This document shows positions 13,313 to 34,389 of a DNA stretch of 52,513 nt, piece by piece. The position numbers and the translations under genes were made by a program. Every line of letters begins with the position of its first letter. The first letter of the stretch is position 1. The notes under the pieces are model-generated. The model was not told the DNA's origin and ran no database searches. It saw only the letters and a program-made list of their open reading frames with translations. The stretch comes from a virus: positions 1-52,513 of the IMG/VR virus record IMGVR_UViG_3300025151_000049; one strand, written 5' to 3'.

Positions 13313-16300
13313 ATGGGTTTAAGTTTTGAACAAACTACTAGAAATAATTTATTTGATAGTGGTATTGGCAACTCAGACGGGAAAACACCAGATTATTTAT
13401 CTACTTTCGCAAAAGAAGATTTTTCTAATAAAATACATGCTAATAGAAGTAAAAGAGAAGACACAGGTTCTTTAACTGATGCCTTTATTGGATTTACAGC
13501 TGGTGGAATAGAAAGTTTTAGTTTTGGCGCAATAAGGCCTGATGATTATTTTGGTTATTCTGAAGATGAGCAAACATTAGCTTATAGATTAGGTAAAGGA
13601 GCTGGTACTGCAGCATCTATGGTTGCTCCTATAGGTCCATTTGGATTAATAGCAAGAGGTGGTAATGCTGCAATTAGAGCAACTAAAGGTAGTACTGCAA
13701 TTGCTAAAGAAGCTATTAAACAAACATCTAAAAAATTTGCAACAGGTTCTTTAACTACTAATGTTATAAACAAAGAGCTTAAAAAACAACTTCTAAAAAA
13801 TGACGCATCTAAAAGATATTTAACACAACATGGTATAAATGCTGAAGAATTAGCAAAAAATAATAAGTTATTACAAGATAATCTAGCTGCAAGTTTAAAA
13901 GCTGGTTTTGAAAAAAGTGGTCAACAAGTTAGTGATAGAGTAGTAACTAGAATTACTAGAGATATTGCTGATCAATTGCGTAAACCAGGAGTTCATTTAA
14001 ATACTATAGAAGATTATGTTCAAAGCCTAACAGGTAGTTCAGGATTTGCTGGTAAGTTTGCAGGTATGGCAGCACAAGATTTTTATGTATTTATGATGCA
14101 TAATACAATAACAAGTGGTATAGGATCTTTTATCCATGGAGATGAAATAGGGACTATGTCAGATATTGGAAAAAGAATTGCTGGTAATTTAGCATTATCT
14201 GGAGCCTTTCCTTTAATAAGAGCGATTCCTGGAGGAGGGAAATATACTCTTAGACAAGGAGCTGATTTATTTAAAACAAAAACTGGTCTTAATACATTTA
14301 GAAATAACTTTATGAGACAAGATTATAAAAAGCTAGTATCCACAAAACAGGGTGAGGAAGATGCTAGAGGATTAATTGCTATGATGTTAAAAGGATCAGA
14401 TTTAAATGCTAGAAATTATAGTTTATTAGGAGGCTATAAGTATAAGGTTACTAATGCTGATAAAACAACTAAAGAAATTGGTATAAATACTATATTAAAT
14501 AACTTAGCTGATCCTAAAAGAATGCCTAAAGAGCAAGTTGTTCAGATTTTAAATCAAATGAGAAAACATTCTGATAAAGCATTTAATAAATGGGGGGCAG
14601 GTTATTTAGCAGAAATGGCTAATGTAGGTCAATTAAGTAGAATGGTATTAGGTATGTTTGCTATGAATGCTGAAACATGGGCTTATGGAGGCTTTGAAGG
14701 GTTAACTATACCTGAAACATTCCAACATCTTGCTATTGGTGCAATGATGGCTAAAAGTAGAGGATTATGGGATAAAGATAATGTAAGTAATTGGGCTAGA
14801 GATTTATCTAACTATAAAGAACTTTCTTATAGATTAAATATGGATACTTCAAACTTACATCAATTAGTAAAAGCTTATAATAAAAATACAAAAATTGGGG
14901 AAACATTTGGTATCTCAATGAAAAATACTGCTGTAGGTAGTGGTATATATGATATAGTATATGCAGATAATGCAAAAAATGATCAAACATATACAGATGT
15001 AGCTGATGGGTTAGTACCTCCAGAAAAGGTAGAGTATGTAAATCAAATGATACAGGTTGCACAAACTATGAAGTCAGGAGTAGTAAGAGATCCTTCTTTA
15101 ATTGACAATATAGATGTTAGAAGATTATCTAAAGCACGTATAGAAGAACTTTATGATAACTTTAGAGAATTAGAATTTAAAGATGGCTCTTCATTAAAAG
15201 ACTTTAGTGCTCCTGATGTATTTTCTCATTTACAAATAGAAGCTTCTGAAGGTATTGGAAATAAATTTAAAGCTTATTTATTAGATGTTGCAGAAGCAAC
15301 AGGTTATCCTTTAGTTTATAATGAAACATCTGATAAGTTAGAAGTGTTTCCAGTAGAGTTTTCTGCAGATGATTTTAGTGTAAATGGACAATATCAACAC
15401 AATTTATTAAAGTTTAATGATTTTATACTTAATCTAGAAAGTCATGGGTTAATTACTAGAAAAAGTAACACAGAATTTAAACAATCTTATTTTGTTAAAG
15501 ATAATAAAGTTGTAAGAGAATCTGTAGATAATGTAGATGTAGCTTCTAAATTAGAAGATATTACAGAAGGTTATATTAATAATATAGTAAAAGGTGCATT
15601 AGGTCAAAATAATGCTTATTTTGATATATTATCGCATGATAATCCTATGTTAAAACAATGGTTATCTGGTAATGCTGCTAAAAATAGAGATAGAATATAT
15701 AAAATTTCACAAGGTAGAACTACAGGTGATGATAGATTTGCTACTCCAGAACAACAGTTTATAGATGTTGTTGGTAATGTTTTTAGATTAAATAATCAAA
15801 GAGCAACTGGTCCTATAGATGATATTGATAAAGGAGCTTTTATTGCAAGGCCTCCTAAAATTATAGCAGATGAAACTACTAGTGACAAGGAAAGTAAATC
15901 TCCAGCTTATATTGATAAAGTTGATAATACTCAATTAAAATTAAATAATATTTATGAAGTTATGAGAGCTGGTCATACTGGAAGAATAGAACAAAGTGGA
16001 CAACAGCATAAAATACCATTAAAAGATGCAGAAGCATTTGTAGAAATGTATGAAAATTTGGGATTACACCAACCTTCTGATCCTTTGTATGACTTTGGTT
16101 ATTATAATGATTTGCAAAATTATGTTGCTAGAAGAGCTTTGGCTGCTCAAAACTTTAATAGTGAATCTTTAGCTATTGTAGTTGCTGCAAGAGATAATGG
16201 TTTATTTGATTTAGAAAACCAAACTATAATGTCTCCTAAAGCTGTTGCAGATGCGCTTATAGCAAATAATGAATTTTCTGCAAACGATCCTGAATATAGA

Positions 16301-19300
16301 GCATTAGTAGAAAAATATGAATATATATTTAATAAGATTTCAAATCATCCTTCTATAAAAATTAGTGATGATTTAATGATTGGAATGAATAATGAATTAA
16401 TATCTGCTAAATCTATTGAAAGTATATTTAATGTTACTCAAAAAGGGTTATCTGGAAAGATATTTAAAGACGTAAATGATGCTATAAATAATATAAAATC
16501 TTCTTTAAAAACAGAAGAATTGGCTGAAATAGGTGCAGAAATTATAAGGTTAACTGAAGATGTTACCACTTATATAGATCAATTAGCTATGACAGGTGCA
16601 CAAGCTGGTGATCCTACTATACAGAAAGCATTAGTTGATTTTCAAGATGGGTATACAATATTATTAGAAAATATTAATAATAAGGTTGCTGGATCTCAAG
16701 TTGTAAAAGCTGAAATTAGTAAGATGGTTAATGAGCTTACTCTAATTCAAAAAGTGTATAATGAAAATCCTGCTATTGCTGGTCAAAATAAATATAACCC
16801 TGCAACGTTATTAACTATGGGTGAGTCTATTCAGCGTGTATTATTAAATGAAAAAGAAAATCAAATACAAGCTGTTGAAACATTAGAAAGAATTGCAAGT
16901 TTAAAGAATCATGCTTTAGGAGGAGGAGAGTTATTAAAATTACATTCTATGTTATTACGTAAATTATCTGTTGATTTAAATAGACCAGAAATGGTTACTA
17001 CGATGAGTGTTAATGAAGCTATTGCAGAGTATACAAATAATAAAAGTTTTGAAAATTTAAACAACGTTGTAAAACTTGTTCAAAGTGTAGCTGCACAGAG
17101 ACAAAGCATGAAACAGTTTGAAAGAGATATTACTGAGAATGCAAGTAAGTTAGAAGATATTGTAAAGGATAAAGCTCATAATAGAAATGATACTCCTATG
17201 CATATTATTAGAAAGTTTAATTTACATGATACTGAAAATCCAAATCAACTATCAATGCAATTTATTGAAATGTTAAATGATTATGTAAATGTTCCAAATC
17301 CAGAAAATGAAAATAAACTAAATCAATTTATTGTTGACAGAGTATCAGCTATTTATGGAGCTCCAGGAAGTAAAGACTTTAATTCAGCTTATTCTGAACT
17401 TATGGTACAATGGCCTGTATTATCTAAACAGTTTGCTAGTATGAATCATATAACTACAGAGTATACTATAAATGGAAATAAAATAGACTATGACAATTCA
17501 ATGCCTGTTAGAAAAACTTTATTAGGTGTAGCGTCTGATTTTATACAATCTTTTAACTTTGAAGGATTAGGTTACATAAATAACAATATTACTAGAGACG
17601 GTAGAAAAGGTCTTTTAAAAGATTATAGTAAAGAAGATTTAGAAAATATTGTCAATAATACACCTGTTATAGATAAAATGCTTGCTGATAGACTTTTAAA
17701 CAACCCTGAAGATGCTGAGTTTATAGTCTCTGAAAGTCAAGAAACTGGAAATAAAAGCAGAGAATCTAATTTTATATTTGATGGAATAAATAAAATGGTA
17801 TTAGATGTTCATGCAGGTAACCCACTTTTAATACCTATAAGTGATAATAATATAAAATCTATAAATGATAAATTTGAAGTTTGGTATGATAATAAATTAG
17901 AAAGATTAGATGTATTATCTGATACAGCTACTAAGAGAAACTTTGTAAAAAGTGTAGAATCATTAGTTTCTAAATTAGGAAGTGAAAATGCACAAGCTAA
18001 AATGATTTTAATGTCTTTAGATGTTGTTAATTCTGCTGGTTTTGATAAAATATTTAGTCCAGAAATGTTTCCAACAAATGATATTACTAATCAAAGATAC
18101 ATGGCTCATGCAGATAAATTATTAAAAATAAGTAAACAATCTGATAATACTAATTATGTAAAATTTGCAAATAAAGACTTAGATGGTTTGACAAATTTAA
18201 GAGGCATTGATCCAGAGCTTTCTAGAATATCTTCTAAGTTTAAATCAAATGGTATAAAAATACAATTGATTACTGATGAAGATATGGGTAGGTTAAAAGA
18301 AAATCTTAATTATCCTACAAGTAATAGAAAACAAGTTTTTGACATGTATAATGAGATTGTTACAAATAAAGATAATAAATATTCTGAAGATCATGTAAAT
18401 GCTGCAAAAGAAACTCTAGCAGAGCTTGAAGCTATGGGACCAGAATCAAGTCTAGCAAGTTCTATACTAGATGGTAGTGGAATTATTATAGACCCTGATT
18501 TTTCTTACTTTAATGGATCTATTCATGGTGATAAAAACTTAAAAGCTTTTAAAAATAACATATCATATAGTAGTGAATTTTTAGGTTCTGCAACAGGACA
18601 TCAAGGTATTATAAGTAAATTCTTTTTACATGAAAATCCAATGATTTCTAATGATAAGTCTTTATATAAGCTAAGAAAAGCTGGTGTTACAATTGTAATG
18701 GGAGAAAGTAGTGCAAAAGCTTTTTATGGATTAGATAGAAATGGTGGTAAGATTATACCATATGAATTAGATCAAAATAAGAACTTTATAGAAAATTTAG
18801 CAAGTATTCCTGCTGACAATATGCGAGGTGTAATGGAAATTCCTTTTGAATCTATGGGATTTGGTTATGCTGCTAAACCAGGAGAACAAGTAATACTTCC
18901 TCATAGTGTTACTGATTTTATGAATGCAAATCAAATATATAAATATAGAACACAACAAGCTCTTCTTGAAAATATTAGAAAATTAAACTCTGCTAAAAGT
19001 AATTTAGAAAGATTTGAAGATGAGACTCAAGCTTTAGTTTTATTTGATAGAGCAGTAGAACAAACTGGATATGATTTTTCAGCAGGAGAATTAGGTCTTG
19101 CTCAAATGGCTTTAAAATCAGGTATCTTTAGTCATCATAACCCTATTATAAGAAAAGGAGTTATGAATTTATTTAATGGATTAGTGTTTGATAAAATAAG
19201 AAGACCTTTAACTAATAGAGGGCAAGATACATATATTATCCCAGATGCTTATTCAGAACATCCTTCTCCTACATTTAGAACAGTTTATGAAAATACTCCT

Positions 19301-22300
19301 ATATCAAAAACTAGTGATGTTAAAAATAGAAAAGTATTTAGAGTTGTTAATAATTTTGGCTATACTTCTATAGCTGATAGAATGGGCAAAACTCCAATAA
19401 GAAGTATGAATGATTTAGATTTTGTAGCTAATATAAATGGTAGAGACATTATATTTAGATATGATGGTAAAAATTTACAAATTATAGATCATATTTCTGA
19501 TATGGCTAAAGCTCATAAAGGTAAAGGGTATTATTTTGGTGGTGATATAACCCCTCAAAAACCATTAGATGATTATTCCTTATCTAAAAGTGAATTAGAA
19601 TCTCTAGAATTATTTGTAAAATCATACGATTCAGCTATATTTAAGAGTGACAATATTGATTATAACACATTAACATTAAAAGGTATGGTAGATTTATTAT
19701 CTAAAGGAACTTATGATATATCTGATGCAAACAACAAAATAAAAACTATTGATTTATCAAAAAATCCTTTAATGTATATAGCAAAAAAATATGATATTGG
19801 ACTTGGTGTACAGTCTTTAGCTATTCCTAAGAAAAGTTTTGATTTAGGTTTTAACAGAATTAAATCAGTTTTATCAGAAGACTTTGGGAACTTATCTATA
19901 ATAAATGCTCATGACTTAAGAATTATGCATCAAAGAGATTTTGATGGAGACCATTTATATCAGTATAGTGGTAATGAATTTGAAGTTTTAAGATATGCAG
20001 TTGCAAGAATGGGAGTTATTGAGGATTATGATATTCTTCCTAGAACACCTCAAAAATCGAATATTTTAGGATTTGATAAGAATGGTACAGTTGGAGCTGT
20101 TCCTTCTGAAATGGGCATGACAAACCTCAAAAAGGGTGTTTTTGCAAATCAATATGGCATTGGAGAGACTGTAACTCTTAAAAATCTAACTAATATGGCT
20201 AGAAATATTGGTATAGAATTTAACCATAAAGATGGTACAATAAGTGAATTTAGAGAAATAGGGGCAGTAGATGGTATAAATCGCTTATTTACTGATCCTG
20301 AATTTTTAGCAGCTAAAGCAATGGCTGTGCTAAATCAAAATGAAGTAGATTATTGGGGTGGAAAACACGCATTAGCAGAAATAGTAAAAGAAGCTATATT
20401 AACTGGAGATGTTCCTAAAAAGTTAAAAGACCAACTTCCATTTGAGATAAAAGGTGTAATTAGTAATGCTGAAAAATTTAGACAAAGAAGTAATCAAAAT
20501 AATGTAAAATCAAATAGTATAAACGAGGCTAATTTATATAGAGATTCTAGAGATATTATATTAAATGCTTTAAAAAGAGCTTCAGCTATTATGAATAATC
20601 CATTTAATGAAGGTGGTCAATTTACACCAACAGATTGGTATTTAAAGAACTCATATAACGATTTAAGAGCATTCTTACAAAATCCTAATGAATACATTGT
20701 TAGAAGATTATTTTCTAAATATAGAGGTAATCGTTCTGTATTAAATGAAATAGTTAATATGTTCTATAATCCAAAAGCAAAGATTGGGTTAAATGAGCGT
20801 TCTTCTGCAGAATTTATTATTAACAATGCTAGAAAAGGTAATGTTCCATCTCCTGATAATAAATTAATAACATTTAAAAATGGTGTAAGAGGTAACAAGG
20901 GATATAAAAATGTTAAAGAATTAATGAGCATAGATAACTCAACATATTTATTAAATGAAGTTAATGATAAAGGATTAATAAGAGATAAAGATTACTATGG
21001 TGACATGTTAGAAACTAATGATTTAAGTTTATCTGATGTAGTTTCATTATCTGGGAATCTTTTAAATAGAGTTATGATGTATAAAGCTTATTTCCCTAAC
21101 TTAGAACCTCATAAAGCAATGAATCAGGATATGGCTACAGATGATTATTTTGATATGCAAATGCCTTTAAAAGTATCTGGAACTAAAAAACAGATGTCTT
21201 GGAAAGATGTAGAAGTTAGATCTGTCACTAAACATATTTTAGAAAAAGATGCTTCTAGACTAAGGGTAGAGATTGCTAAAATGAAAGGGCTTCCTGGTCG
21301 TGTAAATGAGTATGAAAAAACTGTATTAGAAACTAAATTAGGTGATATAGAATCTACATTAAAGGTTCTTGATGATATATCTGTAAAAAGTATTTTTGAT
21401 CAAAACAATATTACAGGCAAAAAACCAGAAGATAATATTTTTACTTCTTTTTATAAGAAAACAGGTAAACAAACTCACAGAGGTAAAGGAGTCTTTCATT
21501 TATATAGAGTAAAAGGATTATATTTAAATACTGATAGTGTTAAAAATCTAAACTTTAAACAACTAGAATATATAGATAAAATAAAGCCTGGAGATATGAC
21601 AACTTATTATAAGGGGTATACTTATATTAGAGTTAATAATCCTCTTCAAAGAAGATATATAGGAGATAATGAATCATTACATGCATTAGGATTGTTTGAT
21701 TATATTAATGCAACAACTCATGCAGAACAAGTTGTTAAGCGTCATGAAGTATCAGAGTTTTATGATAGTGTTTATGAAATGCATAAAATTATAAATGAAG
21801 ATTACCATCTAACTAGAAGAGCATTAAAAGATGAGCCTGCATCTAAAGCGGAAGCATTTGAGTGGGCTTCTAGAAGAGATAAAATGGAACTTGAATCGTG
21901 GTTAAATAGATGGAATAAAAAACCTGATAATATGGAAAACTTATCTGATGATCAATACAACGCAATTGTAAATAAAGATATTAAATTATTAAAGTTATTA
22001 ATTAAACCTTTACATGCATCTGGACAGTATGTTAGTGTAGATAATTTTGATTTACCATATTTATATATGAATAAACAAATACAAAAAGTAGCTTTAAATT
22101 ATTTAGTAGATGCAGAATATGTTGAAATGAGTAATGGGAAACCTATATTACCTCCTGAATTTGAAAAAATGTATGATCATCAAAGAATATATGTTAAAAC
22201 AAGTCAAAACATAAAAACTTCAGACCAAGATATGATTAGAATGGAAAAACATAGACAGTCAGCTATGCAAACTAAAGATACAGACTTTTTTAGATTAGGC

Positions 22301-22495
22301 GAAGTATCTTCATCTGCAGAGTATTTATTTATGGATTGGGGATATGTTGACTGGACATCACATATAAGATTACCTGAAATGCAATATCCTGGTAAAGTTT
22401 ACAAAAGAAGTGCTACAAATAGCGTAAATAAAAAGACTAAACAAATATTTAAGAAGAAAAGAAAAAACAAACGTGATTATTGCGTTAATAAATAA
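13313..22495 (+). CDS. Giant virion protein with DFDGD two-barrel RNA polymerase signature
   Basis: 3060 residues, the largest gene (17% of the window). The N-terminal ~130 residues hold Gly/Ala-rich hydrophobic stretches ('GGIESFSFGAI', 'GTAASMVAPIGPFGLIARGG') as in ejected proteins. Residues 2209-2213 (nt 19937-19951) read DFDGD inside 'IMHQRDFDGDHLYQY', the metal-binding loop of double-psi barrel A in beta'-like and crAss-phage/QDE-1-like RNA polymerases; an 'IPKKS' segment lies upstream as expected for that barrel. About 400 residues earlier, 'VTIVMGESSAKAFYG' (Lys at 1802) followed by 'IPADNMRGVMEI' could be the lysine-bearing barrel B. Order and spacing fit single-chain two-barrel polymerases. 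The C-terminus is very basic. Seen: motifs. Known: such polymerases are packaged in crAss-like phages. Inferred: this is an injected RNA polymerase. No T7/N4-type motif series was found. Confidence 0.65.
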   Translation: MGLSFEQTTRNNLFDSGIGNSDGKTPDYLSTFAKEDFSNKIHANRSKREDTGSLTDAFIGFTAGGIESFSFGAIRPDDYFGYSEDEQTLAYRLGKGAGTAASMVAPIGPFGLIARGGNAAIRATKGSTAIAKEAIKQTSKKFATGSLTTNVINKELKKQLLKNDASKRYLTQHGINAEELAKNNKLLQDNLAASLKAGFEKSGQQVSDRVVTRITRDIADQLRKPGVHLNTIEDYVQSLTGSSGFAGKFAGMAAQDFYVFMMHNTITSGIGSFIHGDEIGTMSDIGKRIAGNLALSGAFPLIRAIPGGGKYTLRQGADLFKTKTGLNTFRNNFMRQDYKKLVSTKQGEEDARGLIAMMLKGSDLNARNYSLLGGYKYKVTNADKTTKEIGINTILNNLADPKRMPKEQVVQILNQMRKHSDKAFNKWGAGYLAEMANVGQLSRMVLGMFAMNAETWAYGGFEGLTIPETFQHLAIGAMMAKSRGLWDKDNVSNWARDLSNYKELSYRLNMDTSNLHQLVKAYNKNTKIGETFGISMKNTAVGSGIYDIVYADNAKNDQTYTDVADGLVPPEKVEYVNQMIQVAQTMKSGVVRDPSLIDNIDVRRLSKARIEELYDNFRELEFKDGSSLKDFSAPDVFSHLQIEASEGIGNKFKAYLLDVAEATGYPLVYNETSDKLEVFPVEFSADDFSVNGQYQHNLLKFNDFILNLESHGLITRKSNTEFKQSYFVKDNKVVRESVDNVDVASKLEDITEGYINNIVKGALGQNNAYFDILSHDNPMLKQWLSGNAAKNRDRIYKISQGRTTGDDRFATPEQQFIDVVGNVFRLNNQRATGPIDDIDKGAFIARPPKIIADETTSDKESKSPAYIDKVDNTQLKLNNIYEVMRAGHTGRIEQSGQQHKIPLKDAEAFVEMYENLGLHQPSDPLYDFGYYNDLQNYVARRALAAQNFNSESLAIVVAARDNGLFDLENQTIMSPKAVADALIANNEFSANDPEYRALVEKYEYIFNKISNHPSIKISDDLMIGMNNELISAKSIESIFNVTQKGLSGKIFKDVNDAINNIKSSLKTEELAEIGAEIIRLTEDVTTYIDQLAMTGAQAGDPTIQKALVDFQDGYTILLENINNKVAGSQVVKAEISKMVNELTLIQKVYNENPAIAGQNKYNPATLLTMGESIQRVLLNEKENQIQAVETLERIASLKNHALGGGELLKLHSMLLRKLSVDLNRPEMVTTMSVNEAIAEYTNNKSFENLNNVVKLVQSVAAQRQSMKQFERDITENASKLEDIVKDKAHNRNDTPMHIIRKFNLHDTENPNQLSMQFIEMLNDYVNVPNPENENKLNQFIVDRVSAIYGAPGSKDFNSAYSELMVQWPVLSKQFASMNHITTEYTINGNKIDYDNSMPVRKTLLGVASDFIQSFNFEGLGYINNNITRDGRKGLLKDYSKEDLENIVNNTPVIDKMLADRLLNNPEDAEFIVSESQETGNKSRESNFIFDGINKMVLDVHAGNPLLIPISDNNIKSINDKFEVWYDNKLERLDVLSDTATKRNFVKSVESLVSKLGSENAQAKMILMSLDVVNSAGFDKIFSPEMFPTNDITNQRYMAHADKLLKISKQSDNTNYVKFANKDLDGLTNLRGIDPELSRISSKFKSNGIKIQLITDEDMGRLKENLNYPTSNRKQVFDMYNEIVTNKDNKYSEDHVNAAKETLAELEAMGPESSLASSILDGSGIIIDPDFSYFNGSIHGDKNLKAFKNNISYSSEFLGSATGHQGIISKFFLHENPMISNDKSLYKLRKAGVTIVMGESSAKAFYGLDRNGGKIIPYELDQNKNFIENLASIPADNMRGVMEIPFESMGFGYAAKPGEQVILPHSVTDFMNANQIYKYRTQQALLENIRKLNSAKSNLERFEDETQALVLFDRAVEQTGYDFSAGELGLAQMALKSGIFSHHNPIIRKGVMNLFNGLVFDKIRRPLTNRGQDTYIIPDAYSEHPSPTFRTVYENTPISKTSDVKNRKVFRVVNNFGYTSIADRMGKTPIRSMNDLDFVANINGRDIIFRYDGKNLQIIDHISDMAKAHKGKGYYFGGDITPQKPLDDYSLSKSELESLELFVKSYDSAIFKSDNIDYNTLTLKGMVDLLSKGTYDISDANNKIKTIDLSKNPLMYIAKKYDIGLGVQSLAIPKKSFDLGFNRIKSVLSEDFGNLSIINAHDLRIMHQRDFDGDHLYQYSGNEFEVLRYAVARMGVIEDYDILPRTPQKSNILGFDKNGTVGAVPSEMGMTNLKKGVFANQYGIGETVTLKNLTNMARNIGIEFNHKDGTISEFREIGAVDGINRLFTDPEFLAAKAMAVLNQNEVDYWGGKHALAEIVKEAILTGDVPKKLKDQLPFEIKGVISNAEKFRQRSNQNNVKSNSINEANLYRDSRDIILNALKRASAIMNNPFNEGGQFTPTDWYLKNSYNDLRAFLQNPNEYIVRRLFSKYRGNRSVLNEIVNMFYNPKAKIGLNERSSAEFIINNARKGNVPSPDNKLITFKNGVRGNKGYKNVKELMSIDNSTYLLNEVNDKGLIRDKDYYGDMLETNDLSLSDVVSLSGNLLNRVMMYKAYFPNLEPHKAMNQDMATDDYFDMQMPLKVSGTKKQMSWKDVEVRSVTKHILEKDASRLRVEIAKMKGLPGRVNEYEKTVLETKLGDIESTLKVLDDISVKSIFDQNNITGKKPEDNIFTSFYKKTGKQTHRGKGVFHLYRVKGLYLNTDSVKNLNFKQLEYIDKIKPGDMTTYYKGYTYIRVNNPLQRRYIGDNESLHALGLFDYINATTHAEQVVKRHEVSEFYDSVYEMHKIINEDYHLTRRALKDEPASKAEAFEWASRRDKMELESWLNRWNKKPDNMENLSDDQYNAIVNKDIKLLKLLIKPLHASGQYVSVDNFDLPYLYMNKQIQKVALNYLVDAEYVEMSNGKPILPPEFEKMYDHQRIYVKTSQNIKTSDQDMIRMEKHRQSAMQTKDTDFFRLGEVSSSAEYLFMDWGYVDWTSHIRLPEMQYPGKVYKRSATNSVNKKTKQIFKKKRKNKRDYCVNK

Positions 22496-26630: not shown

Positions 26631-26794
26631 TTTTTACTCTCCTTTTGTTTTTCTCTTAGCATTTTTTGGTATTCATATCTACATCTTTTAGCATACATTC
26701 TAGGTGTATAGTGAGTGTAGTCACGTTCTTTGGGATTTTGACCTAAACCTATATCCGTTCTATTCATAAAATGTACAAATTCACTAGCCCTCAT
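26627..26794 (-). CDS. Small basic protein (55 aa)
   Basis: Start chosen at ATG 26794 (MRASEFVHF), which overlaps the stop region of the primase-helicase gene; a TTG eight codons upstream is less likely. Ends in a Lys/Glu/Arg-rich helix. Contains 'DYTHYTPRMYAKRCRYEY'. Function unknown. Confidence 0.5.
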   Translation of the reverse strand: MRASEFVHFMNRTDIGLGQNPKERDYTHYTPRMYAKRCRYEYQKMLREKQKESKK

Positions 26795-28556
26795 ATGGAA
26801 CCATTCGTAAGTTATCAAATCCTAGTTTAATATTCATTGACTCTTTTTCTCTGTTCTTATCACTTACAAGCTGCAACATTTGTATCTTACCTTCTTGATC
26901 CTTAAATGGTTTAAGAGATAATATTTTATTTGCATTGTAAGCAACTCTAAATGAGCCTCTAGATGAAGCTATATTCATACCTTCTACCATAGCTTGTTTA
27001 CTAATCTCACTAACAGTAAATACAATTACATTATGTTTTACTGCAAGTTCCATTAATGCTTGACTAGCTTCCTCAACTTTCATGTTATGATCGTTCTTTT
27101 TGCTCCTAAATAGCCCCATATGGTCAACAACTACTATTTCTGGCTTAACAGGTAGGGTAGCAATTCTTTTCTCTAATTCATGTGTATATAGAGATCCAAA
27201 ATCTACAGTTAGCCAATCAAACTTCTGACTAATACCATTGTTATACTTTCTATAATGTTCTGCTAATTCTTCTTCTGACATACCAGTTTCAATCATAGCA
27301 AATCTAGACCATATTTGTCTAGGTGACATCTCCATTTCTATAAAGTATGTTGGTCTTTTAAATGCAACCATCATATTTTGTAGAAACATTGTTTTCATAG
27401 AAGCAGGAGGAGCCTGTAAGATTACTACTTCGCCTGGATATATAGGAAAATCACATCCATAGGCTTCTTTAAAGTTTATAGGATTTAAATCTCTTTTATA
27501 GAACTCAATCATCTCTTTTTCCATAGATTCTGCATCCATAGTATTTTGAGACTTCTTAGATTTAAATAATCTACATGTATTTTGACAATGCTTATCCATA
27601 AGTACGTCATTACAACCATATCTATAGCCATTACCATCATGCCCTTCGTAACAATTATCAATAATTGCATCTAATTCTTTTTGAGTAAATGGTTTTTCTT
27701 TACTATCTACTCTTTCTCTCCAATCATTCATAATCAGTCTGACTGTTTCCTCTGGGTATAGCCATCTCATCCATGCTGATAGTCTAAGTGCTACCATATG
27801 TCTGCTACCAATAACACTACCGTATAACATTCTTTGTATACATGGATAATTCATTGGATCTGGTTGTCTACCTTTAGAGGAGACAGGCTCCTCAATCAGC
27901 TGTGTTTTGTGCGAAGATTGCTGATTTGCTCCTAATACATCAAATACAACATTACATTCAATGTCATCATTTAATACTTTTTGTGGTTGTTTAGCATAAG
28001 ATTCTAATTCTTGTAAAAACTCATTATCATCTTTATCTAATACATTTATAATAGGATCAATCTGAACTTTATATAAATTAGATTTACTATTTTTAGTATT
28101 TAACAACCTTATAATTCTTGTTTTATCTGTAACTGATGGATCTGCATACTCAAATATACCTTTACTAGTCAACTCTTGTTTAACCTTCATATGTAAATCA
28201 TCACATGGCTTCCATCTAAAAGCAGATGAGTGTATACCCACATGAAATCCTGTGCCACTAAAATACGTATTATAGGCAAGATTCATATCTTCTAGTATAA
28301 CGTATAGCCCTAACAATTTATCTCTTGCATTTAAGCTGTTTGTCCCATCTACATCTAATATAAATTCATCAGGCATATATATTAATCCTGTATATCCTGC
28401 TAATTTACCCTTTTTTTGTACATAATCTTGTACTGATTCATCATAATCATACAAAGATACAAATGTATCTCTATCTAATCCCATCCACTCACTAGCTTTA
28501 GAAGCTTCTTGAAAATGGCATCTATTTGATAAACCAAATGCAAATTCTTTTATCAT
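26784..28556 (-). CDS. AEP-type primase fused to DnaB-like helicase
   Basis: 590 residues. The N-terminal half has archaeo-eukaryotic primase motifs: hDhD as FILDVDG (Asp68, Asp70), SGTGFH (His105) and 'DPSVTDKTRIIRLLNT' (about 139-153). A four-cysteine cluster (C302, C315, C324, C328) is a likely zinc site. The C-terminal half is a RecA/DnaB-like ATPase with 'GEVVILQAPPASMKT' as Walker A (382-389) and 'EIVVVDHMG' as Walker B. The loop has Met where Gly normally precedes the catalytic Lys (SMKT). The enzyme would synthesise primers and unwind DNA at the phage fork. It lies next to SSB and ERF genes. No DNA polymerase is encoded nearby, so the host polymerase is probably used. Confidence 0.85.
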   Translation of the reverse strand: MIKEFAFGLSNRCHFQEASKASEWMGLDRDTFVSLYDYDESVQDYVQKKGKLAGYTGLIYMPDEFILDVDGTNSLNARDKLLGLYVILEDMNLAYNTYFSGTGFHVGIHSSAFRWKPCDDLHMKVKQELTSKGIFEYADPSVTDKTRIIRLLNTKNSKSNLYKVQIDPIINVLDKDDNEFLQELESYAKQPQKVLNDDIECNVVFDVLGANQQSSHKTQLIEEPVSSKGRQPDPMNYPCIQRMLYGSVIGSRHMVALRLSAWMRWLYPEETVRLIMNDWRERVDSKEKPFTQKELDAIIDNCYEGHDGNGYRYGCNDVLMDKHCQNTCRLFKSKKSQNTMDAESMEKEMIEFYKRDLNPINFKEAYGCDFPIYPGEVVILQAPPASMKTMFLQNMMVAFKRPTYFIEMEMSPRQIWSRFAMIETGMSEEELAEHYRKYNNGISQKFDWLTVDFGSLYTHELEKRIATLPVKPEIVVVDHMGLFRSKKNDHNMKVEEASQALMELAVKHNVIVFTVSEISKQAMVEGMNIASSRGSFRVAYNANKILSLKPFKDQEGKIQMLQLVSDKNREKESMNIKLGFDNLRMVPYEG

Positions 28557-30171: not shown

Positions 30172-30825
30172 TTAAGAAACTAATTTCTTTTTATCAAGTA
30201 TTAATGTTGAAAAATTGAATATAATTTCTTTGAAGTATGGTTGTTTCATAACTATGTTCTTAACAGTATTAGTTATAAAGCTGCCACTCATATTACTACA
30301 ATAAGATGTAGCTTTACGAGTACATGGTTCTGGATCAGAGTCTTCATCAGAGTACCAATCTTTCTCATATTTTTTAACAGTAATATTATCATATATGTAC
30401 TGTTGATACTGATCTGCACCCATCCTACCATCAATAACAAATGTTGGTTTATCAGGGCATTCTGCAAGTAATTTAACTATTTCCATACGAGCAGACATAC
30501 TATCTAAACCAAGTATAAGTATATCTTCTTTACTGCCCATATAACGATTAAATTTACTATTTACAAGCTCAATTTCAATAGAGCATTCTATTTTTTTGAT
30601 GTGTGTGTATAAAGCATCAACTTTAGATTTACCAATATCTTCATCTACATATTGACTAACACCTACATTTTCTATTCCTACTTTATCAAAATCATAAAGC
30701 GTAAATCTATCAGCACCAAGTCTTGCAAGCTGTGTGGCTACGGAGCTGCCAATAGCCCCGCAACCTACAACATGAAACATAATACCTGATATATCTGCTA
30801 TGTCTTGACTTCTTAAGTTTCTCAT
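30172..30825 (-). CDS. E1-like/ThiF-family ubiquitin-activating enzyme
   Basis: 217 residues. Rossmann nucleotide loop GCGAIGS (21-27), acidic strand end YDFDKVGIENV (44-54, Asp45 and Asp47), Gln58 at the NLxRQ position, DIGKSKVDAL (63-72, Lys66), and GLDSMSAR (106-113, Asp108 and Arg113) are the ThiF/MoeB adenylation residues. C168 in PEPCTRKATSYC (and C176) is a candidate catalytic cysteine. The arginine of the common NLNRQ motif is replaced, so ATP contacts may differ. The enzyme would adenylate the C-terminal Gly of a Ub-like protein. Its ATG overlaps the JAMM gene stop (ATGA); the Ub-like and E2-like genes lie in the same operon. Confidence 0.92.
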   Translation of the reverse strand: MRNLRSQDIADISGIMFHVVGCGAIGSSVATQLARLGADRFTLYDFDKVGIENVGVSQYVDEDIGKSKVDALYTHIKKIECSIEIELVNSKFNRYMGSKEDILILGLDSMSARMEIVKLLAECPDKPTFVIDGRMGADQYQQYIYDNITVKKYEKDWYSDEDSDPEPCTRKATSYCSNMSGSFITNTVKNIVMKQPYFKEIIFNFSTLILDKKKLVS

Positions 30826-31790
30826 ATAGTATATCCTCCATAAGATCGGTTATAAGACATTGCATCAAGAACACTTTCAGCAATATCTAAGTATTTTGGA
30901 TCAATACAATTTATTAGTTCCCATGGTTCTCTATCCATTTCTATAAACTCTTCAAGCTCTTTCTTGTTTAAAGTATCTATAGCAAGACCATAAGGTTCTA
31001 TTAGTTTGTTTGTATGTGTTACTGCTGATTTATACTTATGCATATTCCAATCACCTAAATTGAATTGCCTGATAAATTCTGTTATTTTACCACAAGCATA
31101 CTCATGTTTAGCTTCAAAGTTAATTATTTCTTGTTGTGTTGGTTTTAGCCCTACTTCTAAATCATCATCAAGCCAATTATATGTAGCCCAATTATAATTA
31201 CCAATTGATAATTGTTTTTGATTTTTTGATTGTAACACAGATCCACCAGATTTGTAAGAACTTATATTTGTATAAGCACGCTTCCTACATTTAGCTTTAA
31301 CTTCTGTAACTATCTCAAGTGGTATTTCTACTTCAGGTGTATCATCTAGTATTTTAATTTCAACATCTTGATGTACTTCTACTGGCTTCCATACAGATAT
31401 TCTGCATTTATATTCCTCTTTTAGATTAACAACAAGTGCAAATGAAACATCTGATTCACCTTCACCATACTCATCAATACTAGATAAATCTGTACCACTC
31501 CAGAATGCATCCATTGTATGATGACTGTGCCACCAACAGAATCTAAACTTCTGTTCTTTGTATTTCATAGCCATTTGAGTATAATACGTAGCCAATTCTT
31601 CTTTATCTAGGTCACACGTAGTTCCTGCTATTTCTTGTGGTAATATTACTGGATTTTCAATAGTCCAATCACCATCTTCATCTTGTGTTACTACAGCCAT
31701 ACCACCTATCTCAGCTTTTTCTGTGACATAAGCAGCTTTAGCATAATTTATAATCTTATCCCAAGATTCTTTATGTATTAATATTTCCAT
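30822..31790 (-). CDS. JAMM/MPN+ metallopeptidase (deubiquitinase-like)
   Basis: 322 residues. The N-terminal ~110 residues hold a complete JAMM site: E27 (EIGG), H88-S-H90, then seven residues, S98-x-x-D101. The domain begins at MEILIHKESW, and an extra ~200 residues follow with no recognised fold (two Cys, C-terminal YGGYTI). JAMM enzymes cleave isopeptide or alpha-linked bonds after Ub-like Gly-Gly, which fits trimming of the DQ tail of the 34171 protein and removal of conjugates. It overlaps E1 by four bases. It is far from the tail genes, unlike lambda-K-type tail peptidases. Confidence 0.92.
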   Translation of the reverse strand: MEILIHKESWDKIINYAKAAYVTEKAEIGGMAVVTQDEDGDWTIENPVILPQEIAGTTCDLDKEELATYYTQMAMKYKEQKFRFCWWHSHHTMDAFWSGTDLSSIDEYGEGESDVSFALVVNLKEEYKCRISVWKPVEVHQDVEIKILDDTPEVEIPLEIVTEVKAKCRKRAYTNISSYKSGGSVLQSKNQKQLSIGNYNWATYNWLDDDLEVGLKPTQQEIINFEAKHEYACGKITEFIRQFNLGDWNMHKYKSAVTHTNKLIEPYGLAIDTLNKKELEEFIEMDREPWELINCIDPKYLDIAESVLDAMSYNRSYGGYTI

Positions 31791-31814
31791 TATTCCTCCT
31801 TAAAGTTAATTAAG

Positions 31815-31866
31815 TGTGCCCTGCTCGGTAGTTCTATTTCACACTGACGGGAGACTCACGGACACA
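31815..31866 (-). other. Stem-closed element in the JAMM gene leader
   Basis: TGTGCCC (31815-31821) faces GGACACA (31860-31866): six Watson-Crick pairs plus one position that is C-A in plus-sense but G-U in minus-strand RNA, so it is stable only in the transcript of the operon. It encloses 38 bases and ends 25 bases upstream of the JAMM ATG. Confidence 0.5.
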
Positions 31867-31868
31867 TC

Positions 31869-32738
31869 TTAAAATATGTATCTTATTTCTTGCCACGGTA
31901 ATATTGCATTGTGGCTATGTTTCCAAGCATCAATCAATCTACGTTTTAACTCATACTGGTATCTTATATTAACATTACCATATTGAGATGTTTTTTGTTC
32001 TTGGATTTTAGGCTTCCAAAGCAAGTCTTCTGCTTGTTTTGTACTTTCTTTTTTCATATTGTGTTCGTGCATATCATGATTATGTGTAAGAAATATAGCC
32101 TCACACTTAACATGTTCTTTTATAGCATCATCTACATATTTATCTACTTGTTTAAATAGATTTTGATACAATATACCAGCATCTTCTTCTACAATTATAG
32201 GTGAATAGTTAATGTGAACATCATAACCTGCAATCCAAAACTTGTTAATAGCTTTTAGTCTATCAGCAATTGTTGATGTACCAGGCTCTAGTATATTAGC
32301 ATACTTTTGTGGCATTACACTAAATCTAATACGTATCTTACGATTAGGATTGTAGTCTAATAAGTCCTCATTAACATATTTAGTAGCTGCCGTGCCCATA
32401 GCTCTATCATTGTTCTTAAAATAGTCAAACAACATCTTCCAATCATGATATTGTGCATGTTTTACATAGTCTTCATTACAACTGAAGTCATATGTGTAAT
32501 ATTTATCATGTGTCTGATCAGGTTCTTTAGGCCATTTTAAGTTACCATTGTGAGCATCTATAGTATCTATAATTTCTTGTGTATTTGTTGCTACTGATAG
32601 ACCTGTTTTTAAATGTCTACGCATATAACAATAACTACATTTGTATTCACAACCAAAACCAAAGGAAGGCGTAATAAAATTACTACTACGCCCTGAATCT
32701 CTGATTGTCATTGCTTTACGTCTTACAAAGTTAGGCAT
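31869..32738 (-). CDS. Radical SAM enzyme, spore-photoproduct-lyase-like
   Basis: 289 residues. The Cx3Cx2C iron-sulphur motif is intact at C30-EYK-C34-SY-C37 in the sequence FGCEYKCSYCYMRR, with a Gly/Asn-rich SAM region and further conserved-type segments (YYTYDFSCNEDY near 84). The F-G-x-x-C-E-Y-x-C-x-Y-C context resembles the SPL family, which repairs UV lesions or does related radical chemistry. Within this operon between the E2-like and JAMM genes it may act on DNA, RNA or a conjugated protein; target unknown. Confidence 0.88.
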   Translation of the reverse strand: MPNFVRRKAMTIRDSGRSSNFITPSFGFGCEYKCSYCYMRRHLKTGLSVATNTQEIIDTIDAHNGNLKWPKEPDQTHDKYYTYDFSCNEDYVKHAQYHDWKMLFDYFKNNDRAMGTAATKYVNEDLLDYNPNRKIRIRFSVMPQKYANILEPGTSTIADRLKAINKFWIAGYDVHINYSPIIVEEDAGILYQNLFKQVDKYVDDAIKEHVKCEAIFLTHNHDMHEHNMKKESTKQAEDLLWKPKIQEQKTSQYGNVNIRYQYELKRRLIDAWKHSHNAILPWQEIRYIF

Positions 32739-32747
32739 ATAACCTCC

Positions 32748-34055
32748 TTACATTTCGTCACCTTGTGGTGATTCATCAGGCCAATCTTGTTCACGATCAC
32801 CTTGTATTGGCATTTCACCACCATGAATATTACCTGTTGATGTATTAATACCACCCATTCTAGTAGCCCATTGAAGTGTTAATTGTTCAGCCTGTTCTGG
32901 TGATACTGGTTGAGGATATGCATCTTTATACATACTACATCTAGATCTAAGTGCACATTCTGCTGTATCACAATAATCATCTTCACCTGATGGAGTATAA
33001 AAGCATTCATCTGGTGTACTAGTACCAAATATAGCTCTAAAATCATCATTTATTACCTTTGGCTCACCATGATATGAAGCTTTAATATTGTGATATGGAT
33101 TAGTATTATTAGTATATCTAGTAGCCCAATTAGGTATTTGAATTAGCAAAGATGTTAAATCATATCTACCCATAGCATTACTTATATTTGTTGCATCATC
33201 ACCCCAGCATACACTATTACCAAATATATTACCACTATCTCTGTAATGATTTCCAGATATATAAGGAAACTTTAATCTACCTCTATCATCAAAAGGATAA
33301 ACAAGACCATAGTTATAAGTATTAAACCTTGGGTTATCATAACTAAGTTTATTTGTTATCATATCTTTAATTGGATAGCTTATTATATTTAATTCAATCT
33401 GCATATCACACGGTATATCAGCAATATGTGTAGCTTCTGTTTGTGCTCTTGTATTTGCACTACTATACACTTTAATAGCTGGGGGTGAAAATATAATTGA
33501 TGTGTTTAATATATATCTTTGATTTGATCTACTACTAGGATGTGCATATAATCTATACCATATTGAATTATACATATCTATTCCATCTGCTACTGGCGCT
33601 ACTTTTTCTCCTTGTTCTGATAAGTAATTTTTAAATGTATCTTTATACTCTACAAGAATACTAGGATCATCTAGCCATTCTTCGTTATAATAACGCAAAT
33701 TAGTTATCATATTATCCATTTCTCTTAACTCAGTTTTTATCCAATCCCAACGGTTTAATCTAAAATAATCTTCACGTGATAGAAAATTATACATACCACT
33801 AGGTTTACGTTCAAATCCTAAGCCTCTCATCATTAAATTTGCTACTTTATCATATGTACCACGTTTCCATTTAAATGTTTTAGTAATCTCTAAATCTGCA
33901 TGATACTGTGTGTTAAATCTGTTTAGTCTTTCCATAATATCTGCTTGGGGACCGAAATATATGTGATCACCAAGATCTTCTGTTTCTATAGAATCAATTA
34001 CATCATTAATATCTGTTGATTCTACAATTAAATCGTAAGTATTATAATCTACCAT
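32748..34055 (-). CDS. E2-like (UBC-fold) candidate protein of the Ub-like cassette
   Basis: 435 residues from ATG 34055 behind GGAGGAGAGA; an in-frame GTG further up lies inside the leader hairpin. The region around residues 195-330 fits a UBC fold: beta strands with paired aromatic/Pro residues (SIIFSPPAIKVY; LKFPYISGNH), His270, then after 12 residues Cys283 in GNSVCWGDD, followed by a helix (RYDLTSLLIQIPNW) and NPY. The H...C spacing (13) is slightly longer than the classic HPN...C (~10), and no HPN tripeptide exists. The C-terminal 100 residues have a Cys-rich patch (CDTAECALRSRC), possibly a metal site. The N-terminal 190 residues are unassigned. The operon context supports an E2 role; sequence alone is moderate evidence. 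Confidence 0.5.
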   Translation of the reverse strand: MVDYNTYDLIVESTDINDVIDSIETEDLGDHIYFGPQADIMERLNRFNTQYHADLEITKTFKWKRGTYDKVANLMMRGLGFERKPSGMYNFLSREDYFRLNRWDWIKTELREMDNMITNLRYYNEEWLDDPSILVEYKDTFKNYLSEQGEKVAPVADGIDMYNSIWYRLYAHPSSRSNQRYILNTSIIFSPPAIKVYSSANTRAQTEATHIADIPCDMQIELNIISYPIKDMITNKLSYDNPRFNTYNYGLVYPFDDRGRLKFPYISGNHYRDSGNIFGNSVCWGDDATNISNAMGRYDLTSLLIQIPNWATRYTNNTNPYHNIKASYHGEPKVINDDFRAIFGTSTPDECFYTPSGEDDYCDTAECALRSRCSMYKDAYPQPVSPEQAEQLTLQWATRMGGINTSTGNIHGGEMPIQGDREQDWPDESPQGDEM

Positions 34056-34074
34056 TTCTCTCCTCCAAAAGTTA

Positions 34075-34154
34075 TATAGGGCTGATTGACCCTCGTTAGT
34101 GTATACTCTCGCACCTAGGTCGGTATTTTTCTCGCCTGTCACTACAGCCCTATA
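34075..34154 (-). other. 10-bp stem-closed leader of the E2-like gene
   Basis: TATAGGGCTG (34075-34084) is the perfect reverse complement of CAGCCCTATA (34145-34154), enclosing 60 bases that include a palindromic ACCTAGGT (34113-34120). It fills the 115-base gap between the Ub-like and E2-like genes, ending 19 bases upstream of the ATG. Candidate processing or translation-control element. Confidence 0.6.
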
Positions 34155-34170
34155 AGTTATAAATTAATAA

Positions 34171-34389
34171 TTACTGGTCACCGCCAGACTTATTATTATT
34201 AACAGCTGCAACAATATCACCTTCAGAAATAGCGTGAGTATTAGTTACAGATACACCGTTAACAGCAACAGATGCATTACTACTAATATCATCTGGAAAC
34301 TCTGCTCTTAATTGTTCAACGGTTTCAGCGTTAGTTTGTCTCTCTACAAAGCCGCCACCTTGTAGGAATTTTATAGTTTTAGTTGCCAT
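34171..34389 (-). CDS. Ubiquitin-like beta-grasp protein with C-terminal Gly-Gly
   Basis: 72 residues behind AAAAGGAGGCCAC. Begins MATKTIKFLQGGGFVERQ (beta strand and turn), has a helix 'AETVEQLRAEFP', then strands 'SVAVNGVSV', 'HAISEGDIVAAV' typical of ThiS/MoaD, and ends NNNKSGGDQ (Gly69-Gly70-Asp71-Gln72). ThiS/MoaD proteins end exactly in GG, whereas here two residues follow, as in precursors that need a JAMM or Ubl protease. The operon contains JAMM, E1 and E2-like genes, so it would be the modifier protein. It could alternatively be a sulphur carrier. Confidence 0.72.
   Translation of the reverse strand: MATKTIKFLQGGGFVERQTNAETVEQLRAEFPDDISSNASVAVNGVSVTNTHAISEGDIVAAVNNNKSGGDQ

Follow-up and report, generated by a model that had tools for sequence, protein, structure and literature searches.

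The analysed stretch of DNA (hereafter the window) is the IMG/VR virus record IMGVR_UViG_3300025151_000049, of 52,513 nt (52.5 kb), in which five open reading frames (ORFs) covering about 4.2 kb of the minus strand (30172-34389) include a putative ubiquitin-like conjugation cassette. In order of transcription, they encode a small ubiquitin-like protein (UBL), an E2-like protein, a radical SAM protein of the spore-photoproduct-lyase (SPL) family, a JAB metallopeptidase and an E1 adenylating enzyme, and all five were found where a first-pass annotation, made from the DNA sequence alone, had placed them. The conserved core consists of the four genes UBL-E2-JAB-E1, located upstream of a primase-helicase gene.

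The UBL gene (34171..34389, minus strand) encodes a predicted modifier precursor of 72 aa with a beta-grasp fold and the C-terminus NNNK67-S-G69-G70-DQ, i.e. the announced SGGDQ end preceded by a lysine (KSGGDQ). Its Pfam match to UBL-ThiS (E=4e-4) is just under the Pfam cut-off. The AlphaFold2 (AF2) model (predicted local distance difference test, pLDDT, 82) is a beta-grasp with a disordered tail, and the top PDB match of this model in Foldseek is the Caldiarchaeum ubiquitin 6fj7 (E=9.7e-4), followed by ubiquitin, NEDD8, SUMO and MoaD; the structure prediction and fold search proposed in the first-pass annotation thus returned a beta-grasp with a match to the ubiquitin family. Among 35 diverse relatives sharing a common beta-grasp pattern, K67, G69 and G70 are invariant (motif K-[STV]-G-G), and the tail beyond the diglycine varies from 0 to about 60 aa, tails being unrelated past this point; five UBLs (loci L055, L066, L076, L079 and L084) end directly at the diglycine. 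As read from these sequences, an invariant Lys-x-Gly-Gly followed by a variable tail is the signature of a modifier precursor that would be trimmed. A beta-grasp fold (AF2/Foldseek) and a processable diglycine (invariant K-x-G-G), which characterize the UBL of a generic Ub-like conjugation system, are therefore both predicted here. In 12 close relatives (mean amino-acid identity of the UBL 92%), the ratio of nonsynonymous to synonymous polymorphism (pN/pS) is lowest of five genes for the UBL (0.17, compared with 0.27 for ERF, 0.31 for E1, 0.37 for JAB and 0.63 for the E2-like gene), as expected for a protein with several partners.

The E2-like gene (32748..34052, minus strand, 434 aa) was assigned by its cysteine motif and operon position. 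ATG 34052 was retained as its start and GTG 34142 rejected, since nearly all relatives align from the methionine at the former, with a strong Shine-Dalgarno sequence (GGAGGAG). The protein is laid out as a helix, a beta-meander, a putative active site (F262-P263-Y-I-S ... C282-x-G284) and then helices. Across 43 relatives, P263, C282, C366 and C372 are invariant, G284, W309, C350 and C361 are conserved in at least 90%, and T317 and P319 are also nearly invariant. Most of these relatives read HPYIS or HPFIS ... VCxGD, and this HP...C motif recalls the HPN...C of ubiquitin-conjugating enzymes. The C-terminal cluster C350/C361/C366/C372 suggests a putative zinc site, perhaps used for substrate choice. 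In the structure model (pLDDT 85), a long helix leads into successive strands, followed by the loop with the proline and cysteine and by further helices, an order compatible with a ubiquitin-conjugating (UBC) fold. None of the 43 members matches the Pfam E2 families, and nothing firm came from hmmsearch against the PDB (alignments A1, A6 and A7) or from hhalign against PRTRC-B and the corresponding Xanthomonas-phage and Roseburia proteins described below; a Prok-E2_B search in 300 bacterial genomes of one phylum gave zero matches, its control being also silent. The E2 identity rests on the HP...CxG motif, on gene position, and on a BFVD match to proteins of crAss-like and Fpv phages that occupy the same operon slot. 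The pN/pS of the gene indicates fast diversification, and JAB and E2 distances are correlated (r=0.83). In a near-identical relative (contig 3300002483_000056; L008 4586-6090, L007 8001-9490), a duplicated out-of-frame stretch near the E2 active-site segment breaks the frame, which looks like an assembly fault.

The JAB gene (30822..31790, minus strand) encodes a predicted JAMM/JAB (MPN+) metallopeptidase of 322 aa. The residues E27, H88, H90, S98 and D101 are all intact, as annotated at first pass, and they are invariant in 16 relatives, so that the E-HxH-S-D motif is complete. Pfam matches were obtained with Prok-JAB (E=1.7e-4, under the Pfam cut-off) and with the JAB family, and the profile matches the archaeal Rpn11-like structure 6fjv in the PDB (E=9e-4). 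The E1/ThiF gene (30172..30825, minus strand, 217 aa) overlaps the JAB stop by four bases (ATGA), and its annotated GCGAIGS, Asp108 and Arg113 are present together with K68 and a candidate catalytic cysteine, C168. In 17 relatives, GxGxxG, K68, D108 and R113 are invariant. Cys168 is invariant as well, and its column is conserved as far as the E1s of crAss-like, Flavobacterium (Fpv) and Xanthomonas phages, Roseburia and PRTRC, which makes it the best thioester candidate of the enzyme; judged from sequence, the adenylation site and the cysteine of an E1 are thus both in place, and catalysis would probably involve C168 itself. In Pfam, the protein matches ThiF (E=2.9e-19); it scores 78 bits against the thiamine-biosynthesis ThiF equivalog PRK08644, below the cut-off of 159, and no thiazole-synthesis gene was recognised beside it. 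Structures matched by the E1 profile in the PDB were UBA5 and UBA6 (the best), MccB, MoeB and Cap2. MccB among these matches would agree with a ThiF-type peptide maturation (MccB/RiPP-like), with the small protein as precursor peptide and E1 yielding the modified product, which is very improbable for a small protein that is a full beta-grasp domain, constrained over its full length and paired with JAB and E2.

Relatives were collected from viral contigs by an E1 search (30 loci) and by a profile search (336 loci, 80 of which were kept), and iterated hidden Markov models of the four families were run over all ORFs of the loci. As loci were picked by E1, counts are given per E1-bearing locus and measure co-conservation given E1. 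The order UBL-E2-JAB-E1 holds throughout the viral loci. Of the 45 loci whose sequence reaches 3.5 kb or more upstream of E1, 44 have all four genes in this order; in the sole exception (L048), the contig stops about 1 kb short of E2. Overall, the quartet was found in 47/82 loci, the others being cut by contig ends or by the ends of the stored data; one locus (L036), extended with more of its contig, has all four genes too. JAB and E1 frames overlap in 67 of 74 cases (an upper bound, longest-ORF starts being used). A primase-helicase gene lies downstream in every locus with more than 2.5 kb downstream (70/70), with SSB in 62/70 and ERF in 45/70. Co-conservation in related phages, proposed earlier as a check, was therefore borne out for the quartet, E1 and JAMM without the partner genes not occurring in this phage group. 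Key residues being invariant across 13-43 relatives, depending on the family, and the gene order being recurrent, the cassette is not a product of chance. Assembly artefact and host contamination were rejected: the quartet occurs in dozens of independent contigs, and genes for terminase, portal and capsid proteins are found on the plus strand of the window (right part). In a 104 kb contig (IMGVR_UViG_3300030451_002683), the region from E1 to primase is present twice, in differing versions (L011 and L035, with E1s 92% and 100% identical to that of the window); this contig represents either two related phage genomes joined together or a double-length record.

Outside this group, tblastn searches with E1 retrieved 78 annotated phages, including Flavobacterium phages, crAss-like phages of Bacteroides, and others. 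In Fpv3, Kolpuevirus, DAC15, cr111_1, bajarodcaudo virus 1 and crAss001, JAB precedes E1, and upstream of this pair are found a protein with a UBL-like N-terminus and then a protein with an invariant HSH ... C-x-G motif. The cassette is near DNA primase and uracil-DNA glycosylase (UDG) genes in Fpv3 and crAss-like phages. The UBL-like region, after which comes a long extension, ends in K-S-G-G in Fpv3 and in K/R-S-G-A in the other phages; since Gly or Ala is the conserved residue at the conjugated C-terminus of CBASS cGAS (PMC10097602), UBLs ending in Ala are compatible with conjugation. Between the two phage groups, homology is firm for JAB (hhalign E=5e-9), marginal for the UBL (P=0.001), and seen by structure only for E2, with BFVD matches to a 420-aa protein (the length of Fpv3 gp54) and to a cr128_1 protein. 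The Xanthomonas jumbo phage PhiXhv-15 (L100 1751-6506) encodes E1, a UBL-like protein whose C-terminus is exactly ASGG, and a Cys-rich protein of 892 aa that carries HPHM...CLG, annotated as hypothetical or thiamine biosynthesis, and no JAB was recognised next to this E1. A scan of genomes with the E1 profile gave one related locus in a metagenome-assembled genome (Roseburia, L038 5822-8645), either bacterial or from a prophage, with a UBL-sized protein devoid of GG, an NPH..CFG protein, JAB, E1 and then a reverse-transcriptase-like gene.

Cassette genes of cultured phages are annotated as "thiamine biosynthesis" (often E1), "metalloprotease" or "hypothetical". A sulfur-carrier pathway, in which the ThiF-like E1 would activate the UBL as a thiocarboxylate donor similar to ThiS/MoaD that thiolates a nucleotide, a tRNA or a small molecule without protein conjugation, would agree with the Pfam matches, where the UBL is closest to ThiS and E1 to the ThiF families, and JAMM peptidases accompany ThiS in sulfur pathways too (PMC1779556). 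It is nevertheless unlikely, because every complete cassette includes a Cys-containing E2-like partner, from which a sulfur carrier would gain nothing, because the surroundings of the cassette gave no recognisable rhodanese, cysteine desulfurase or cysteine synthase, and because UBA5/UBA6 rank first among the PDB matches of E1.

In prokaryotes, Ub-like conjugation has been described in archaea, on plasmids and in defence operons of bacteria. By gene content, the closest systems are the PRTRC/type 6d operons that Iyer and colleagues described on plasmids; these consist of Ub-like, E2-like, JAB, E1 and helical proteins (PMC1779556) and likewise have four separate Ub-like, E2-like, JAB and E1 genes on mobile elements. 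The phage E1 is related to PRTRC_ThiF (TIGR03736, E=7e-9), and its plasmid matches are annotated as PRTRC ThiF. However, all PRTRC models stay under their cut-offs (PRTRC_ThiF 35 bits vs 145; PRTRC_A E=0.14), no ParB, StbA or helical protein of PRTRC type was recognised with the phage cassette, the phage E2-like protein and UBL have no profile match to PRTRC B/C, and the phage genes sit in a replication module; the cassette was not classed as PRTRC.

Bil (ISG15-like), Bub and CBASS Cap2/Cap3 share the E1-E2-JAB logic and reversible conjugation, the phage E1 matching Cap2 structures, but no CD-NTase, E1-E2 fusion or accessory protein of these systems was seen with the cassette, which is phage-borne and not a host defence. 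PADLOC returned generic E1-E2 (E=3e-15) and JAB domain matches and left the UBL and the E2-like protein unmatched; the 6A-MBL model gave 40 bits vs 320, and the cassette was not assigned to CBASS type II, Bil or 6A-MBL. CBASS, Bil and 6A-MBL have other architectures and partners. The resemblance of E1 to defence E1-E2 fusions, together with the rapid diversification of the E2-like gene, could point to counter-defence, the quartet tagging or untagging a host Ub-like defence (Bil, Bub, CBASS Cap2/Cap3) or flooding it with decoy UBL, a mechanism that overlaps with conjugation for the phage's own replication. This role is doubtful: nothing indicates such defence systems in the hosts, and a fixed place in the replication module of two unrelated phage groups, with group-wide presence, is unlike sporadic anti-defence genes.

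Phage-encoded UBL and JAB, as here, also occur in the tail assembly genes of lambda/T1 (TAPI-TAPK), lambda-like phages having UBL-JAB pairs in their tail operons (PMC1779556); these operons are without E1 and E2, whereas the present cassette has all four genes beside replication genes. By analogy with these pairs, and with Bil acting on attacking phages, the UBL might be used by the phage itself to decorate virion or packaging proteins during assembly. We consider this quite unlikely, the cassette being part of an opposite-strand replication operon, separate from the portal, capsid and tail genes. The Caldiarchaeum/eukaryotic ubiquitin operon resembles the cassette in the top matches of the UBL (6fj7) and JAB (Rpn11-like 6fjv) and in a precursor that needs trimming, and differs by its RING E3 (none was recognised here), another E2 and the phage context.

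Taken as a whole, these data favour, with a probability of roughly 0.78, a complete reversible ubiquitin-like conjugation pathway encoded by the phage and acting in the infected cell at genome replication. We infer the enzymatic steps, the UBC fold, the early timing and the substrates, deriving the mechanism from active sites and precedent and early expression from the position of the cassette. The JAMM peptidase would first trim the residues past the diglycine (here Asp-Gln), exposing ...Lys-Ser-Gly-Gly. E1 would then adenylate the C-terminal Gly70 with ATP and hold the UBL, probably as a Cys168 thioester. The next acceptor of the UBL would be Cys282 in the E2-like protein. Two parts of this protein may choose the substrate, standing in for an E3: its C-terminal four-Cys site, which probably binds zinc, and its N-terminal domain, which is specific to the family. 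The E2-like protein would join the UBL to lysines of phage replication or recombination proteins and/or of host proteins, from which the JAMM peptidase could take it off again. As the constant neighbours of the cassette in two unrelated groups of phages are genes of replication and recombination, phage replication proteins are the first candidate substrates, the alternative being host proteins or Ub-like defences of the host. Several observations weigh against this pathway. The E2-like protein of the window has FPYIS, with Phe replacing the His of the HP motif seen in most relatives; its structure model matched no solved E2 in a Foldseek search of the PDB, which leaves the UBC fold unsupported; profile-profile comparison (hhalign) gave no link to the E2s of crAss-like phages or PRTRC; and no gene for an E3 or a proteasome-like reader was recognised.

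A broader proposal, which we put forward tentatively and at somewhat less than even odds, is that several unrelated groups of tailed phages, including cultured crAss-like phages of Bacteroides from the human gut, have a viral equivalent of ubiquitin/SUMO signalling as an ancient core part of their replication module, and would tag and untag their own replisome or recombination proteins and possibly host proteins. If true, Ub-like tagging serves the growth of bacterial viruses themselves. The question can be tested now, because the same gene order exists in cultured phages of Bacteroides thetaiotaomicron, B. intestinalis and Flavobacterium. There may also be implications for how eukaryotic ubiquitin systems arose, since the nearest matches of the UBL fold and of JAB are archaeal ubiquitin and Rpn11. 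Ub-like systems of this general kind are known; the new element is a cassette that is borne by a phage and linked to replication. A search of open-access literature (preprints and many subscription papers being outside this scope) found no description of a UBL-E2-JAB-E1 system encoded by a phage, and a crAss survey of 2021 is silent on ubiquitin, ThiF and JAB, which is weak evidence of novelty.

The radical SAM gene (31869..32738, minus strand) has an intact CX3CX2C motif and belongs to the broader Pfam SPL family (E=4e-21). With 287 bits vs a cut-off of 438 for TIGR03886 (E=2.7e-85) and 69 bits vs 400 for TIGR04070, it falls short of the spore photoproduct lyase equivalog, and its N-terminus is shorter than the TIGR03886 model by about 60 residues. 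The gene is located between E2 and JAB in 4/50 loci and elsewhere relative to the cassette in others (L021, L046, L063, L068 and L075). It was consequently rejected as a fifth component: of the five-gene cassette first described, the quartet is co-conserved, and the SPL-family gene is an optional accessory neighbour outside the core, possibly acting in DNA photoproduct repair. The 78-base gap that separates it from JAB (31791-31868) is possibly structured and is without an Rfam match.

The cassette is inside a minus-strand gene block (about 38.8 to 25.6 kb) in which the ERF, SSB and primase genes named as neighbours in the first-pass annotation were all recognised downstream: an ERF annealing protein (30081-29578; ERF E=1.8e-24), an SSB-like protein (29568-29044; SSB phrog_378 E=0.01) and a primase-helicase-like protein with a DnaB C-terminal domain (26784..28556; DnaB_C E=1e-10), all on the minus strand. 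No Rfam family or tRNA was found in the window. The terminase has less than 26% identity to all matches listed. Among the structural genes, a single open frame of 3060 codons extends over 13313-22495 on the plus strand.

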